36,327 nt of DNA from a virus. The notes under the pieces were generated by a model. It did not search any database, was not told the DNA's origin, and saw nothing but the letters and a program-made list of their open reading frames with translations. Positions 4,840-23,605 of the stretch are shown here, in pieces. Within the stretch, counting starts at the first letter, position 1. The number at the start of each line of letters is the position of its first letter. The stretch lies in the IMG/VR virus record IMGVR_UViG_3300042332_000744, positions 1 to 36,327 of that record. One strand, written 5' to 3'. The position numbers and the translations under genes were made by a program.

Positions 4840-5115
4840 CTACTTCTTGAGCTGATCGGGCGCGAGGCGGTAGTGCTGGATCGGATAGACACCGCGGTTG
4901 CCGGACATGATCCGGAACTTGCGGCACTCCATCACACCGAGCTTGGTCGAGCGGCAGAGGATGATCCCCGCCGCGTTGGCCGTCAGGTTCCACTCATCGG
5001 ACCACTGGGACGCGGTCTTCCAATCGCTGGGCACGCACTCTGGCTGGTTCGCGATCGCTAGTCGCAGATGTCTCAGTAACTCGGCAGATTCCATTTGGTT
5101 TCGTTCTGTGGCCAT
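4840..5115 (-). CDS. Small winged-helix-like protein, 91 aa
   Basis: The N-terminal helix (MESAELLRHLRLAI) is followed by TASQWSDEWNLTANAAGIIL, which reads as a winged-helix recognition segment, and by a basic strand pair with RVYPIQHYRL-like spacing. It starts 43 bases before the stop of the metallophosphoesterase; Met8 (at 5094) is an alternative start with a shorter overlap. AT-rich sequence (TTATATATACATC) lies just upstream of the start, inside the previous gene. It could regulate this short operon or act as a DNA-binding partner. Function not established. Confidence 0.55.
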   Translation of the reverse strand: MATERNQMESAELLRHLRLAIANQPECVPSDWKTASQWSDEWNLTANAAGIILCRSTKLGVMECRKFRIMSGNRGVYPIQHYRLAPDQLKK

Positions 5116-5810
5116 TGATGTATATATAATTGGGCTTCGTTATCTGTATACTCTCCAAATACAATACCGTGGTTCCATGCTAGTGTGGACCGCCTCTTGG
5201 CCGCGTAATCCATCGACGGAATGTTAGCCAGAGTTCCAACACAAAAACCCACCGGACTCGATTGAGTTCGACCTGTTGCTTGGCCCGCTCGATGAGCATG
5301 CGCGACCACACAGTTGCCGAATGTCTCAGCCGAATCACGAATGAAGTTCTCTCCATAAAGCACACCATGTCCCCACTTGTACCCACCGAGCTTGTAGAAG
5401 GAGCGATCTAGGCAGTCGTTGTACTTGATGAAGGTGTGGCAGTGCTTCTCGATTGGCTTGATCATCCGCTCCCACACCGCCTCGGCGAATCCTCGGACCA
5501 CCGCGTTGTGATGGTTCAAGTACTTCTTGGCCCGCTCATCATGGTTTCCGAGGGTGAAGACCGTGGGGCGTAACGCATTCAGGAAGGCCGCGCCCTCCTG
5601 CACGTCGTCCAGATAGTCATCCGCGTGATCCGAGTCGTCCGGGTTGGCCAGTGAGCCGCTCCTCAGACTCGCAAGATCGTAGGCGTCGCCCAGGTGGATC
5701 ACCTCATCCGGTCGGAACCGCTCGCGGAAGAGCAGAACCGCGGCAAGCGCGTCTTTATTGGCCCGATTACCATGGCTACAGCCCACCGCCATCACTCTCT
5801 TCACACCCAT
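5073..5810 (-). CDS. Calcineurin-like metallophosphoesterase, 245 aa
   Basis: The metallophosphoesterase motifs are in order: GCSHGN (H13), HLGDAYD (D42), LGNHDER (N89, H90, D91), WGHG (H148) and VVAHAHRAG (H171, H173). The length fits a single catalytic domain. The first motif normally reads D-x-H; here the Asp position is Cys11, so one metal ligand is altered. The ATG at 5810 is chosen; an upstream GTG (5825) would add five residues. Substrate unknown: such enzymes hydrolyse phosphomono- or diesters, including nucleotides and nucleic acids. In a phage accessory island, DNA processing or degradation of a defence nucleotide signal are possible roles (inference). Confidence 0.75.
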   Translation of the reverse strand: MGVKRVMAVGCSHGNRANKDALAAVLLFRERFRPDEVIHLGDAYDLASLRSGSLANPDDSDHADDYLDDVQEGAAFLNALRPTVFTLGNHDERAKKYLNHHNAVVRGFAEAVWERMIKPIEKHCHTFIKYNDCLDRSFYKLGGYKWGHGVLYGENFIRDSAETFGNCVVAHAHRAGQATGRTQSSPVGFCVGTLANIPSMDYAAKRRSTLAWNHGIVFGEYTDNEAQLYIHQWPQNETKWNLPSY

Positions 5811-6024
5811 GCAGCGACCAAGCACGGATCCGAAATGGACTCAAGCGGTATAAAGCGGCAGACCGCACCATAATTTGCCGCATTTCCCAGTCCCCGGATT
5901 TCGGATTCCAAACTCCGAATTCCGAATTCGCGTATGGCGTATGCCATTTCTGGAATACCGCACCATGAGATCCCGAGGATGATTGGCCCGCTCAATTGCG
6001 AATCGCTCCGCGTGTAACGGGGTG

Positions 6025-6039
6025 GGACATGGGGTGTCC
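6025..6039. promoter_or_regulatory. Operator-like inverted repeat GGACAT-N3-GTGTCC
   Basis: The half sites GGACAT and GTGTCC surround GGG. It differs at one base from the perfect form at 6071-6085, and the two centres are 46 bp apart. Two further sites of the same kind occur in the other divergent region, at 8006-8020 and 8102-8116. The dyad and recurrence suggest binding of a dimeric regulator. Confidence 0.5.
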
Positions 6040-6068: not shown

Positions 6069-6087
6069 TCGGACATTGGATGTCCGA
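6069..6087. promoter_or_regulatory. Perfect operator-like inverted repeat TCGGACAT-N3-ATGTCCGA
   Basis: An exact 8-bp dyad surrounds TGG, the longest copy of the motif. It lies upstream of the metallophosphoesterase operon and downstream of the terminator that ends the neighbouring minus-strand operon. It could bind a phage or host repressor. Confidence 0.55.
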
Positions 6088-6168: not shown

Positions 6169-6198
6169 AAAAAACCCCGCAGGGGTTAACCTACGGGG
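6169..6198 (-). terminator. Intrinsic terminator of the minus-strand Cys-rich operon
   Basis: Read on the minus strand, CCCCGTAGG (6198-6190) pairs with CCTGCGGGG (6183-6175) with one central mismatch and a 6-base loop, followed at once by six T residues (6174-6169). This is a classic rho-independent terminator. It lies 20 bases beyond the last gene of the operon (stop at 6218). Confidence 0.85.
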
Positions 6199-6217
6199 CG
6201 TGGCGGGGATTCCTATG

Positions 6218-6307
6218 TTAGTTGCCAGCGAGGGCGGAAAGGAGGAGAAGCATGGTAAACAGGAAGCAAAGGGCGAGGTAGCCTAGGACACGCAAAAGGG
6301 GTTTCAC
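6218..6307 (-). CDS. Transmembrane microprotein, 29 aa
   Basis: The GTG start (6307-6305) overlaps the stop of the preceding gene as GTGA, the same coupling used elsewhere in this operon. The product has two basic residues (K2, R6) and then an almost uninterrupted hydrophobic stretch (LGYLALCFLFTMLLLLSALAG) ending at TAA 6218. It would span a membrane once. The terminator follows directly. Its coupling and position argue that it is real, but length makes chance possible. No function is known; see also the 35-residue membrane peptide at 7519. Confidence 0.55.
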   Translation of the reverse strand: MKPLLRVLGYLALCFLFTMLLLLSALAGN

Positions 6308-6567
6308 TTAAGCTTCCTTCCATCGATGACCTCGAGGCGCAATCCAAGCGGGCCAAGTTTGCTTTCGATGACAGGGCGCACACGGTCGGAGCATTCAGAG
6401 CAAAACACTTTGATTGAGGCGCATTTGTCGCCCTTCCAAGCGGAAAGTTCAACGGCGCGACGCCAGTCTAGAATCACACCGCACTCGGGGTGTGAGCAGA
6501 ATATGGCCCGACCGACCGCGAACTTGAAGGCGTCGCGCTCAATTGTCTCTTTCATTAAATCGATCAC
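6304..6567 (-). CDS. Zinc-finger-like small protein, about 87 aa
   Basis: The start is GTG 6567, overlapping the previous stop as GTGA, or ATG 6555. The product has CSHPECG, a GVILDWRRAVEL segment, then FCSECSD: two Cys pairs about 30 residues apart, as in small treble-clef or zinc-ribbon folds. Similar C-x2-5-C, ILDxRRAV, CxxC proteins occur as unknowns in phages (from memory). It sits directly after the 235-residue protein. No catalytic motif. Confidence 0.65.
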   Translation of the reverse strand: MIDLMKETIERDAFKFAVGRAIFCSHPECGVILDWRRAVELSAWKGDKCASIKVFCSECSDRVRPVIESKLGPLGLRLEVIDGRKLK

Positions 6568-7271
6568 AGGACACCCCCCTTCATGAAGTGACCAGCACCC
6601 TTCCCGTGAACAGGAATATGGATCGCTTGAATCCCACCCCGAGCGCCCGCACAGGCTAGGCAATCGGCACAGGGTGTCCCGAATCGATCACTGGCGCATA
6701 GCGTCTCCACGGTATGATGATCGGTGTCGGGAGTGACACGAAAAGTTGACCAACCCATGGAACGAGCGATCACAAGCTCAGCGGTAGTGTCCACGCTGGC
6801 CATAAGGATGGAACGCCAACCCTGCAAACTAGGCTTGCGCCACTGGTGGGTATACCCCGTGTGACCACTAGCAACGCCGGCGATTGCAAGGGCGAGGCTC
6901 AACGGTAGGTGGGTGGGATCGCCGTATGCGCCGAAGCGAACCTTGCGGCCCGCGAAGCAATCCATGAATTGAAGCGTAGGGTATCGGCCCGCTTTCCATG
7001 CTTTCCAAATGCCCAAAGGCGCTTGGCCCTGATTGACGTAGCAGGTTCGCTCAACCCCATACACCCCGTTTTCTTCGTGGCCACGGTGTCGGCAATTGCC
7101 GCAGATAATGCGGTCCAAGCCGGTTTTAATCGCGGTCACGGGGTCTTCCGCTTTGCAGAGAATCCAAATTTGGATCATGTCGCCGGTTTTCCGGTTGTCG
7201 GAAGGGGTGGAGAATCCCGTCGCGATGACAACCCGCAGGGTGTCCTCGTGGATGATGTAACCGTTGCTCAC
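6564..7271 (-). CDS. Conserved-looking Cys-rich phage protein of unknown function, 235 aa
   Basis: The segments look strongly constrained: CGNCRHRG (about 70-77), CYVNQGQAP (about 91-99), VRFGAYGDPTHLPL (about 126-139), GYTHQWR (about 154-160), SMGWSTFRV (about 185-193), then an ASDRFG segment with CADCLACAG, and a closing HGKGAGHF. Seven or more Cys residues in pairs suggest one or two metal sites. I recall similar GYTHQW and C-x2-C-x2-C proteins in other phages and bacteria, always uncharacterised. The order of conserved Gly/Asp/His/Cys suggests an enzyme, perhaps metal-dependent. Start ATG 7271 overlaps the previous stop as ATGA. It is the largest gene of the operon and probably its functional core. 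Confidence 0.7.
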   Translation of the reverse strand: MSNGYIIHEDTLRVVIATGFSTPSDNRKTGDMIQIWILCKAEDPVTAIKTGLDRIICGNCRHRGHEENGVYGVERTCYVNQGQAPLGIWKAWKAGRYPTLQFMDCFAGRKVRFGAYGDPTHLPLSLALAIAGVASGHTGYTHQWRKPSLQGWRSILMASVDTTAELVIARSMGWSTFRVTPDTDHHTVETLCASDRFGTPCADCLACAGARGGIQAIHIPVHGKGAGHFMKGGVL

Positions 7272-7522
7272 AGAGAACCTCCGTGGATCACAGTGAACCG
7301 GAAGTTATGGCCCGTCGTTTCGTTGTGGCCCGACGGGTACCCGATGAAAGCAGCGAATTCGACAATTGAGAGGTTCCTAGTGTAAGAGTCCTCAACGAGG
7401 GTTCGGACTAGTCCCCGACGCCCGAAGGCCCGACGTGCGGCCCGTTTCGCGAATATTTGAGCGGCAGAGTGGATTCCTTCGGCACGAACCGAGCGGTACC
7501 CATTGCAACGAAAGAGAGTCAA
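7268..7522 (-). CDS. Conserved-looking small partner protein, 84 aa
   Basis: A TTG start at 7522 overlaps the stop of the upstream microprotein gene as TTGA, and no better start is present, so TTG is likely used. The product has YRSVRAEGIHSAAQIFAKRA, a basic RRAFGRRG stretch and a C-terminal AAFIGYPSGHNETTGHNF. The pattern looks conserved but I cannot name it. The strict coupling to the 235-residue protein suggests that the two work together. Confidence 0.65.
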   Translation of the reverse strand: MTLFRCNGYRSVRAEGIHSAAQIFAKRAARRAFGRRGLVRTLVEDSYTRNLSIVEFAAFIGYPSGHNETTGHNFRFTVIHGGSL

Positions 7523-7626
7523 TTGGCACCTCCAATCGATTCAAGGATCCCGACGAGGATCATGAGGAGGAGGAAGCCCAAAGCCGCGAGAGGGCCTTGG
7601 AGTTTGGAGGGAATGCGTAGTTTCAT
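7519..7626 (-). CDS. Transmembrane microprotein, 35 aa
   Basis: From ATG 7626 the frame encodes a basic start (MKLRIPSKLQG) and one hydrophobic segment (LAALGFLLLMILVGILESI), ending in TGA 7519-7521 inside TTGA, which overlaps the TTG start of the next gene. The positive-inside pattern predicts an inner-membrane anchor with the N-terminus in the cytoplasm. It is short, but the overlap with the next start supports it. The function is unknown. Confidence 0.55.
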   Translation of the reverse strand: MKLRIPSKLQGPLAALGFLLLMILVGILESIGGAN

Positions 7627-7698
7627 TGGTTGTAGTGACTGGCCACAATGACCAGACCAGATGACACCGTTTCCGATGCCATCGGATCCGATCACTGA

Positions 7699-7935
7699 CT
7701 AGGCTTCAACGTCAACGGTCGCGCAGGCGTCACACCATTGTCCGCACTGCGTCAAACGACGCAGTGGGAACCGGTTGCCGCACTCCCTGCAATCGCAGTG
7801 GATTTCAGAAATCCAACTGTCCTTACCACTGGCTAATCGTGCGATTGCTGCGGGAATCAAGCGCCCATCCGATAGGGAAACAAACCGCTCTCCGTGCTCG
7901 TTTCTGAGTAGCTTATACAAGGGTTTTGCATTCAT
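7699..7935 (-). CDS. Zinc-ribbon-like small protein, 78 aa
   Basis: The N-terminal half (LYKLLRNEHGERFVSLSDGR) is beta/helical. The C-terminal half holds CDCRECG and CGQWCDAC, a four- to six-Cys zinc-ribbon arrangement. ATG 7935 is the first gene of the minus-strand operon and faces the terminase small subunit promoter region divergently. About 70 bases separate it from the next gene (7626) and hold nothing I can recognise. Function unknown; a nucleic-acid-binding or regulatory role is possible. Confidence 0.6.
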   Translation of the reverse strand: MNAKPLYKLLRNEHGERFVSLSDGRLIPAAIARLASGKDSWISEIHCDCRECGNRFPLRRLTQCGQWCDACATVDVEA

Positions 7936-8005: not shown

Positions 8006-8020
8006 GGACATCGCATGTCC
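8006..8020. promoter_or_regulatory. Operator-like inverted repeat GGACAT-N3-ATGTCC
   Basis: A perfect dyad with CGC as spacer lies in the divergent region between the Cys-rich minus operon (starts 7935) and the terminase small subunit (starts 8089). Nearby AT-rich DNA (AAATTATTTA, 7977-7986) could hold promoter -10 elements for either direction. It matches the sites at 6025 and 6069. Confidence 0.55.
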
Positions 8021-8088: not shown

Positions 8089-8529
8089 ATGGCGAAGGGT
8101 AAGACATTGGACGTCCAAGTGGTTAACCAGGAAGGAAGGAAGGGGAAGGGGACTCAGGGGAGGAAGATTGGGAGGCCCCTCAAAATCCTTTCTACTGACG
8201 TGACAAAAAAAGCGATTGAAGCGGCCCGGCTTGGGATACCGCTTGAACGCATCGCGATTGGTTGTGGGTTCTGGAACAACGGAGCGGGGTGGCAATCGTA
8301 CCTAGCAAGGAATCCGGCATTTGCTGCTGAACTAGAACAAGCGCGATTTGAGGGGGAACTGGACCTTACCTCGGTTGTTCGCCAATGCGGCAACGGCTGG
8401 CAAGGAAGCGCATGGTTATTGGAGCGTACCCGCGGCTACGTTGCCCGCGCTCAATTGGATCACACTACCAAAGGAAAGGAATTATCTATAAGCGGCTCAC
8501 TCCTAGGCGCATTCGGTGGTGGAAAGTAA
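8089..8529 (+). CDS. Terminase small subunit-like protein, 146 aa
   Basis: Small terminase subunits recognise phage DNA and present it to the large subunit. The residues RKIGRPLKILSTDV are followed by an HTH-like segment (AARLGIPLERIAIGCGFWNN), a YLARNPAFAAELEQAR helix and a C-terminal GSAWLLERT segment, an order typical of this family. ATG 8089 is preferred over ATG 8059 and ATG 7948, because the upstream codons give poor sequence and span an operator-like repeat. It lies just before the large subunit, with a repeat-rich 135-bp gap between them. Confidence 0.7.
   Translation: MAKGKTLDVQVVNQEGRKGKGTQGRKIGRPLKILSTDVTKKAIEAARLGIPLERIAIGCGFWNNGAGWQSYLARNPAFAAELEQARFEGELDLTSVVRQCGNGWQGSAWLLERTRGYVARAQLDHTTKGKELSISGSLLGAFGGGK
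8102..8116. promoter_or_regulatory. Imperfect operator-like site AGACAT-N3-ACGTCC
   Basis: It keeps the TGG spacer of the perfect site at 6069 and most of the half-site bases. It lies in the first codons of the small terminase gene, 96 bp from the site at 8006. It is the weakest of the four copies and may be a coincidence. Confidence 0.3.
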
Positions 8530-21637: not shown

Positions 21638-23605
21638 ATGCCTTTCCAATCCTCAGACGCTCTCGATGACCAGATGCTTCTGGATGGAAGCACCGCATTC
21701 AGCACTGGCGTCGTCTCCGCTACTCGTCCTGATGCCATCCCTGCTACGAGCATGGAGTCGGCCATCAACATGGACTATGATGACTTCGGCAACCTCGTCA
21801 CCCGTCTGGGATCCATCTCGCTGACCGGTAACAGCGAATCGAGAAACTGGGAGGAGATCCTCACCGCTTGGAACTCAACGACCTCCAACTACGGCAGCAA
21901 TCTACCAACAAATGCGGAGGTCTATTCCGGATTCTACTTCGACACCGCGGCATCCGAGCGACTGGTCATCGCGGTCAGCGATCGTAACGCGAACACCAAG
22001 AACCTGTACTTTGGTTCCCCCGGCGTTTCCTATAACGCCATCAGCGGCGCGACGCTGAACAACGCTGCTACCTTCGTTTACTTTGCTCAGCTCAATGACA
22101 AGCTGTTCTATTCCGATGGCTACGATGGGCTTCGATATGTCTCCAGCGCGAACCTGAATGCGTCAGCAGCCGCTGGAAAGATCAGCCGCATCGATGTCAT
22201 CAATCAGGGTGATGGCCACAGCGTATTGCCAACGATCACTCTTTCTGCTCCGCCAAGTGGTGTAACGGCAACGGCTGAAGCGGTTGTTTCAAATGCTGGT
22301 AATCTCGTTGCGATCAAGATCACCAATCCCGGAAGCGGATATGTAACGGCTCCAACTGTTACAATCTCTCCAATCAATCAGTCGCATGCGGTGGCCTACG
22401 TCTCGCTCACGCCGCCCAACAGACCGCTCTATCTCACCACCCATACCAACCGGCTCTGGTGTATCTCGGGCGATACCACCATCCAGCCCGATACCCTCTA
22501 CTTCTCGGACATCCTCGATGGTGAATCTTGGGATCCTCTCGGCTCGATCCGCATTGGTGGTGATGGCGATCCCATCAAGGGTCTCTACTCTTGGTTCGGA
22601 TACAAACTGCTCGTCTTCAAGGAACGCTCAATTTGGAGCGTAGATGCCGATCCTACGCAGGATCCTGCCGATTGGGTCATATCACTCGTCAGCGGCAATA
22701 TCGGTTGCTCCTCGCACCGTTCCATCGCCGCGGTTGGTGCTGACGTATTCTTCCTGTCCCGCGACGGCATCCGGTCGATGGCGCAGATCCAAGCCGGCAC
22801 CCAGACCAGCGTCGGCCTCGCGCTCTCCAGCCCGATCAATGACCTGATCAGTAAGATCGACAAGACCAAGCTTGACCTCTGCGACGGTGTCTTCTGGAAC
22901 AACCGCTATCTCCTCGCCGTTCCGTTCGTTCTTGATGAAATAAACGGTCTCGGACTAGAGAGCGAGTTTGCTGTGCTTCTGGAATCCGAGTCGTCGATCG
23001 AACTCGAAGCCGCTTTTCCTCGAAACAACGCGGTCATCGTCTACCACTCACTGGCTCGCTCTTGGCTGGGATACTGGGACAACTGGCAAGTTAACGACTT
23101 CTTCGCCACCTCGTTCTCCACGTTTGGACCAGTACTCATGTTCGCCGGCGACATGACCTCGATCTCAGAGGGAGCTGGCCAAGTCTGGTCGTTTAATGAC
23201 TTCCTCCCCAACACCCGTCTCGCACCGGTCGCAAGCTCTGCGTACCTGGACGGTGGATCTCGTTACCAGTCGAGCGTGATCACGAAGGCGTACAACCTGA
23301 ACGAGCCCATCCCCGACAAGATCGGGTACAGCATCCAGTTCGCGTTTGACAATCCGTACACCACATCCAACACGGATGCGGCGATCGCTTACGCTACCAA
23401 CATGTCCGGCACGTTCACGGACCTCGATTCGAGCCTGACGATCACCAACTCGCAGAAGTTCCTCAAAGCGTACAACCTGATCAGCAAGGGACGCTGGAAC
23501 ACGATCCAGTTTCGGGTTCAGACCAATCCCAACTCGGGCGGTCGCTTGTCGCTTCAATCCACCATCCTCTCTGGGTTCGTTGATTCTGTGCGTCCGCAGC
23601 AATGA
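21638..23605 (+). CDS. Tail tubular protein B-like or tail stabilisation protein, 655 aa
   Basis: A large beta-propeller-like tail protein: LNDKLFYSDGYDGLRYV, then Ig-like linkers with PTITLSAP and VTISP, TNRLWCIS, TLYFSDILDGESW, YKLLVFKERSIWSV, VFFLSRDGIRSM and YLLAVPF blades. The WCIS, RSIW and GIRSM segments are characteristic of podovirus tail nozzle proteins. The length is close to that group. It starts 4 bases after the adaptor stop. Confidence 0.7.
   Translation: MPFQSSDALDDQMLLDGSTAFSTGVVSATRPDAIPATSMESAINMDYDDFGNLVTRLGSISLTGNSESRNWEEILTAWNSTTSNYGSNLPTNAEVYSGFYFDTAASERLVIAVSDRNANTKNLYFGSPGVSYNAISGATLNNAATFVYFAQLNDKLFYSDGYDGLRYVSSANLNASAAAGKISRIDVINQGDGHSVLPTITLSAPPSGVTATAEAVVSNAGNLVAIKITNPGSGYVTAPTVTISPINQSHAVAYVSLTPPNRPLYLTTHTNRLWCISGDTTIQPDTLYFSDILDGESWDPLGSIRIGGDGDPIKGLYSWFGYKLLVFKERSIWSVDADPTQDPADWVISLVSGNIGCSSHRSIAAVGADVFFLSRDGIRSMAQIQAGTQTSVGLALSSPINDLISKIDKTKLDLCDGVFWNNRYLLAVPFVLDEINGLGLESEFAVLLESESSIELEAAFPRNNAVIVYHSLARSWLGYWDNWQVNDFFATSFSTFGPVLMFAGDMTSISEGAGQVWSFNDFLPNTRLAPVASSAYLDGGSRYQSSVITKAYNLNEPIPDKIGYSIQFAFDNPYTTSNTDAAIAYATNMSGTFTDLDSSLTITNSQKFLKAYNLISKGRWNTIQFRVQTNPNSGGRLSLQSTILSGFVDSVRPQQ

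Follow-up and report, generated by a model that had tools for sequence, protein, structure and literature searches.

A modular minus-strand operon built around a phage-specific, cysteine-rich protein family in a probable Verrucomicrobiota phage

What does a compact operon of six genes contribute to a phage whose virion genes lie on the opposite strand? The window analyzed here, by which we mean the whole stretch of DNA, comprises the 36,327 bases of a virus record and has a direct end repeat of 25 bp. It encodes primase/helicase, terminase, portal, major head protein, RecT-like and exonuclease proteins and a Holliday junction resolvase; a search for an integrase with PF00589, the profile for this integration type, gave no match in the window. 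The TerL of the window was nearest to those of Akkermansia phages, at an identity of only 31–36%, and the one close genome match to p235, the core protein of the operon, was found at 84% identity on contig L250 in a Verrucomicrobiota MAG. On the basis of these two matches, the host of the window phage is likely, although not proven, to belong to Verrucomicrobiota. The sequence-only reading of this locus suggested host takeover, anti-defence or superinfection exclusion as its role.

Architecture, modularity and exchange of the operon

All six open reading frames of the minus-strand operon described in the sequence-only reading were present, with small corrections only. The first gene, p78 (7699..7935), encodes a 78-aa zinc-ribbon-like protein with CxC/CxxC...CxxC pairs, and is followed by p35 (7519..7626), encoding a 35-aa membrane microprotein with a single helix. 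The 84-aa, arginine-rich p84 (7268..7522) is translationally coupled to the 235-aa core p235 (6564..7271), a member of PHROG 2554 and a remote DUF7227 homologue. The operon continues with p87 (6304..6567), which encodes an 87-aa zinc-ribbon-like protein (Cx4C or CxxC ... CxxC), and finishes with p29 (6218..6307), encoding a second single-helix membrane microprotein of 29 aa. The strong terminator claimed for the operon end was found on the same strand at 6174..6199, with a 10-pair stem containing 7 G-C pairs and a T tail. As claimed, the operon and the virion genes are on opposite strands, although the next genes (a phosphoesterase gene at 5073–5825 and a gene at 4840–5115) share the strand of the operon. 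The former (minus strand; calcineurin-like) had a counterpart in only 3 of the 80 related loci and is an accessory gene adjoining the cassette. A sigma-70 promoter scan of the operon found no consensus promoter.

Four-base overlaps joined the genes at four junctions (TTGA at 7519–7522 and GTGA at 7268–7271, 6564–6567 and 6304–6307), whereas p78 and p35 were separated by 72 nt and thus fell outside the overlap pattern that had been described. Among the overlap sequences named earlier, TTGA and GTGA were borne out, but ATGA was absent from the window and occurred in relatives. GGAGGT, which serves the following gene as its ribosome-binding site, is formed by the C-terminal codons of p35 (IGG) and of p84, and a GGAGGTnCC...ATGA/TTGA layout recurred at the p84–p235 junction in relatives. 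Comparison with relatives gave pN/pS values of 0.17 for p84, 0.21 for p87, 0.22 for p235, 0.24 for p29 and 0.53 for p35, indicating that these genes are under purifying selection and that calling them coding is better than chance. A 58-aa reading of the p35 frame was rejected: its N-terminal extension had a pN/pS of 0.90 and is non-coding, so the 35-aa reading is correct.

The two short single-span membrane peptides of the earlier description were confirmed, with one strong hydrophobic stretch each (Kyte-Doolittle values of 2.37 for p29 and 2.50 for p35); only 1 of the 107 ATG open reading frames of 25–45 aa in the window had a value above 1.9. As small hydrophobic peptides, p29 and p35 might be lysis factors (holin-like or single-gene-lysis) that the rest of the operon regulates. 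However, the amidase-like gene (21638–23605) is a long way from theirs, and each product is one short helix coupled to non-lysis genes; we give this explanation hardly any credence.

For the analysis of partner genes, 80 close-relative loci were chosen via p235, which is present in them by construction, and the partners were scored by tblastn on contigs that were often incomplete. On this basis, p84 was present in 32 loci, p87 in 41, a p35-type gene in 35 and p29 in 50, and no p78 homologue was found among these 80 closest p235 loci. Other small genes occupied the same slots in relatives, for example one for a 119-aa protein sharing the GGSL end. This pattern indicates that the operon is modular in close relatives, with a universal core and flanking small proteins that come and go. 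The 84-residue partner passed the co-occurrence check proposed for it: of the 42 viral loci with p84, 41 extended to p235, and in each of these p235 followed immediately, overlapping p84 by 4 bases. The predicted structure of p84 had a pLDDT of 53 and was uninformative. Across 69 sequences, p87 fell into two sub-families, and a search with p87 itself yielded 13 loci, each of which held p235. The p35 family (MKxRIPPKxHGPLxxLGFxxxxxxxALIEsIGG) comprised 44 sequences, and the p29 relatives in the 50 loci were near-identical (KPLLRVLGYLALCLLFTLLLxLSALAGN). Profile searches with p78 gave only weak zinc-binding matches, and p78 homologues were found 0.4–1.1 kb upstream of DUF7227 genes (L320:840-1073 and L336:230-445; phmmer E-values of 2e-7 and 3e-9, respectively), which would link p78 to the p235/DUF7227 superfamily.

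Unlike the window, distant PHROG 2554 loci lacked p84, p87, p35 and p29 alongside the p235 homologue, and these four proteins are therefore not essential to the general role of p235. The conserved linkage of the genes thus held within the close phage group and did not extend to distant phages.

In the sister phage L011, the segment 6306..8391 was replaced as a block. The DNA of L011 was 94.3% identical to the window over 13895 to 8391 and 6306 to 875, whereas inside the segment the alignment was limited to p35 (83%), p235 (78%) and 42 bp close to the start of terS, and sliding-window identity dropped from 95–99% to 3–81%. The right breakpoint is the p87/p29 junction. The other lies inside terS, indicating that terS and the operon are not inherited together. 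This result bears on whether the cassette, being divergent from terS, assists packaging or its regulation. In the window, as in the relatives examined, the divergent neighbour was terS, and 19 of 125 distant loci had a terS-like gene upstream in divergent orientation. However, no terminase gene was found in the stretches around the p235 homologue in mycobacteriophages, Klebsiella phages and Microcystis phages, and, with the breakpoint inside terS as well, a packaging role is very improbable.

Paired palindromes with the sequence GGACATnnnATGTCC were located at 6025–6039 and 6071–6085, 46 bp apart and beyond the terminator. The palindrome GGACATCGCATGTCC lies upstream of p78 at 8006..8020, and a weaker copy at 8102–8116 overlaps the terS start region. 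With at most one mismatch, GGACATnnnATGTCC had 102 matches in 595 kb of relatives compared with 2 after shuffling. At least one copy (up to two mismatches) was found shortly past the operon end in all 69 loci with enough sequence, and paired copies in relatives were spaced by 46, 33, 24–25 or 29–30 bp. A copy upstream of the operon was present in only 16 of 75 relatives. Thus, the operator-like sites that had been assigned to the operon as its own are real, but the most conserved copies are beyond the terminator. The GGACATnnnATGTCC palindromes are probably operators of a phage regulator, and it is probably the next transcription unit, not the operon, that the conserved pair serves. An HTH protein encoded at 581–1270, conserved in 11 of 11 relatives tested, may be guessed to be their binder.

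If the palindromes were repressor operators and the microproteins blocked DNA entry of related phages, the operon would be a superinfection-exclusion or immunity cassette. The two conserved membrane microproteins, the conserved palindromes and the exchange of the block between sister phages are in accord with such a role. However, the palindromes kept in 69 of 69 loci are not at the operon promoter, p235 homologues are also present in phages that are usually considered strictly lytic (Klebsiella Vequintavirinae and Autographiviridae), and the missing PF00589 match makes superinfection exclusion by a lysogen less likely. We therefore regard this explanation as improbable.

The p235 family and its predicted fold

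The core protein is no orphan: a profile search placed residues 11–229 of p235 in PHROG 2554 (E = 7.3e-60), a family that the sequence-only reading had missed. Scans of IMG/VR found homologues in well over 600 viral contigs; the first scan gave 586 encoding stretches, and two scans with distant members as queries gave at least 600 each. Among cultured phages, 147 records held a homologue (Mycobacterium, Gordonia, Klebsiella, Microcystis, Roseobacter, Caulobacter and other phages), and wherever these were annotated among the matches listed, they were called hypothetical or of unknown function. Only 14 of 84,980 bacterial and archaeal species genomes and 6 of 72,556 plasmids held a homologue, in scans that used a degenerate pattern with which distant members can be missed. 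This distribution indicates a phage-specific family that is almost never found in bacteria.

Residues C57, C60, C192, C201, C204, C207, H142 and H222 were invariant in 95 diverse members, and C77 was conserved in more than 90%. The homologues in Mycobacterium, Gordonia, Klebsiella, Microcystis, Caulobacter and Roseobacter phages have the same cysteines as p235, which also carries the N-KTG, G-YGD and HG motifs of PHROG 2554. Because seven cysteines and two histidines are invariant or nearly so, p235 is probably a metalloprotein, and the cysteine pattern looks like one 3-Cys and one 4-Cys metal site. A fused domain suggested by the 529 columns of PHROG 2554 was rejected as an alignment artefact, the longest member found having 291 residues.

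Scans of the operon proteins against Pfam and NCBIfam gave no match above cut-off, and PADLOC defence profiles gave none at E 0.01. Searching PDB sequences with the family profile yielded nothing beyond chance matches to CTLA-4. Literature searches on DUF7227, on DUF932 with ArdC and on mycobacteriophage toxicity screens that mention Odin, PegLeg or related phages brought up no test of the p235 family. The earlier statement that no part has a known function stands insofar as no homologue has a tested role; the core itself is not new to databases. In the literature searched, we found no description of the operon architecture, of its exchange as a block or of the two conserved microproteins.

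The p235 family profile matched that of DUF7227 (PF23872), which was seeded from gp105 of Pseudomonas phage PAK_P1, with an hhalign probability of 99.5% (E = 2e-22, 207 columns). The NxKTG, C..C..CY, GD, YTH, CPA, C..C..C and HG motifs are common to both families and in register, whereas identity is about 18% and the first cysteine pair is CxxC in p235 and CxxxC in DUF7227. By hmmscan, p235 itself had no match to DUF7227 at E-values up to 5, and 6 of 11 family members matched below the curated cut-off (best 9e-4). By these profile comparisons, p235 represents a sister family of DUF7227 and not a member of PF23872 proper. DUF932 genes adjoin members of both families; in a Verrucomicrobiota MAG, one lies after a DUF7227 gene. 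On contig C76 of a Verrucomicrobiota MAG, a DUF7227 protein (L277:1339-2061, plus strand) has its segments in the order HMM 6–35, 90–218 and 36–87, the arrangement of a natural circular permutation as judged from the profile alignment. Phage DSL-LC04 (OR003939.1) had a match to this permuted protein that covered 97% of its length with an identity of 66%.

The AlphaFold2 model of p235 (pLDDT 94.8) is a series of six beta/alpha units with the first cysteine cluster after the first one. A Foldseek search of the PDB gave no match below E 0.36, and weak TIM-barrel matches were set aside (TM at most 0.24). In BFVD, the model matched close homologues and DUF7227 proteins, and Gene-product-88 proteins at E 0.15 or worse. 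Separately, proteins in alphaproteobacterial genomes (L305, L306, L308 and L311) matched both DUF5131 (PF07505) and GP88 (PF17338), which suggests that these two Pfam families are related.

The strand-helix order of the model and the cysteine cluster after the first strand are reminiscent of radical SAM and DUF5131 (Gp37/Gp68) proteins. This likeness is part of the main rival explanation, in which p235 is a phage-specific enzyme modifying nucleotides, DNA or tRNA, perhaps with a radical-SAM-like half barrel and an unusual cysteine motif, and thus has an auxiliary metabolic or DNA-modification function and is not a takeover factor. Six beta/alpha units, with C57xxC60...C77 following the first strand and a second cysteine cluster near the end, are in accord with such an enzyme, as are the matches to DUF7227 and, weakly, to Gene-product-88 proteins. 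Genes for thymidylate synthase and glutaredoxin lie near the p235 homologue in CRP-118, and Thy1, deoxynucleotide kinase, Mom and methyltransferases are also among the neighbours. However, kinship with radical SAM (PF04055; hhalign probability 0.4%) or DUF5131 (under 1%) was unsupported, CxxC-x16-C stands in place of the radical SAM CxxxCxxC, and the PDB fold search was without a match. Frequent partner swapping would also be unusual for a core metabolic enzyme. We consider the enzyme explanation possible but rather unlikely.

Genome position and neighbours of p235 homologues

In cultured phages with physical ends, the p235 homologue was near one genome end: at 49.8–50.5 of 52.8 kb in Odin, 78.3–79.0 of 81.0 kb in PegLeg, 43.8–44.4 of 45.7 kb in S2B, 40.2–41.0 of 41.1 kb in CRP-118 and 144.3–145.0 of 149.6 kb in DSS3_MAL1. 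The early leftward lytic region of cluster A mycobacteriophages is located at the right genome end, as established for L5.

We surveyed 125 diverse loci for same-strand neighbours of at least 110 aa within 1.6 kb (133 neighbours in total). DUF932 proteins were found 7 times, PHROG 757 DNA methyltransferases 6 times, ArdC antirestriction proteins 4 times, T7-0.7-like host-transcription inhibitor kinases 3 times, and an N6/N4 methyltransferase and Mom once each; the choice of families followed from their having been noticed close to p235, and the counts come without a neutral background set, so that the enrichment is suggestive. In 50 long records, all copies of ArdC (2/2) and DUF932 (4/4) were within about 3.6 kb of p235. 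Two intact ArdC genes (L152:2036-2917 and L153:2044-2916) preceded same-strand p235 homologues by 84–85 bp. In early-region position and in some neighbour genes, p235 loci resemble the T7 early region (ocr and the 0.7 kinase) and ArdC/Mom loci, whereas no homology of the T7 ocr and 0.7, ArdC or Mom proteins to the operon proteins was found. Taken with that caution on the counts, p235 appears to have an early-region location and an association with antirestriction and takeover genes, and its position suggests that the cassette would be expressed early.

Proposed role of the cassette

These results led us to propose, at about even chances, that this locus serves a lytic-type phage, probably one infecting Verrucomicrobiota, as an early, non-virion cassette for host takeover or counter-defence. 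Because no homologue has a tested role, we infer the role from the phage specificity of the family, its genome-end position and its ArdC, methyltransferase, DUF932 and gp0.7-like neighbours, from the block exchange between otherwise near-identical phages and the modular partners, and from the p84–p235 coupling in 41 of 41 loci and the seven invariant or nearly invariant cysteines and two histidines. The takeover or anti-defence part of the sequence-only reading fits these features. Superinfection exclusion, packaging and lysis are less likely than either the takeover/counter-defence or the enzyme explanation.

In the proposed takeover or counter-defence mechanism, p235 would be the conserved metal-binding core of the PHROG 2554/DUF7227 superfamily, made by translational coupling with small proteins in exchangeable slots (p78, p84 and p87) and accompanied by the membrane microproteins p35, before p235, and p29, last in the operon. 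Soon after DNA entry, p235 would act on a conserved host process or defence pathway. Swapped partners may tune the target or the host strain against which p235 works, and the microproteins may bring the complex to the inner membrane or act there.

A bolder proposal, which we hold to be distinctly unlikely, is that p235 and DUF7227 represent a metalloenzyme or metal-cluster fold invented by phages, lacking any solved relative and acting early on a host process conserved across actinobacteria, proteobacteria, cyanobacteria and probably Verrucomicrobiota, and that in this phage group it would be recruited to the membrane by the microproteins and redirected by the partners.

The PHROG 2554/DUF7227 superfamily is restricted to phages, extends over several host phyla and is present in at least about 600 viral contigs per branch in one collection, and despite this wide spread it has no solved structure. 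Homologues are present in the tractable phages Odin and PegLeg (Mycobacterium), KpS8 (Klebsiella) and S2B (Caulobacter), which makes the role of the family directly testable. Partners could be sought through the modular operon, and near-identical phages that differ by the exchanged block offer a natural, ready comparison for host range or escape from defence.
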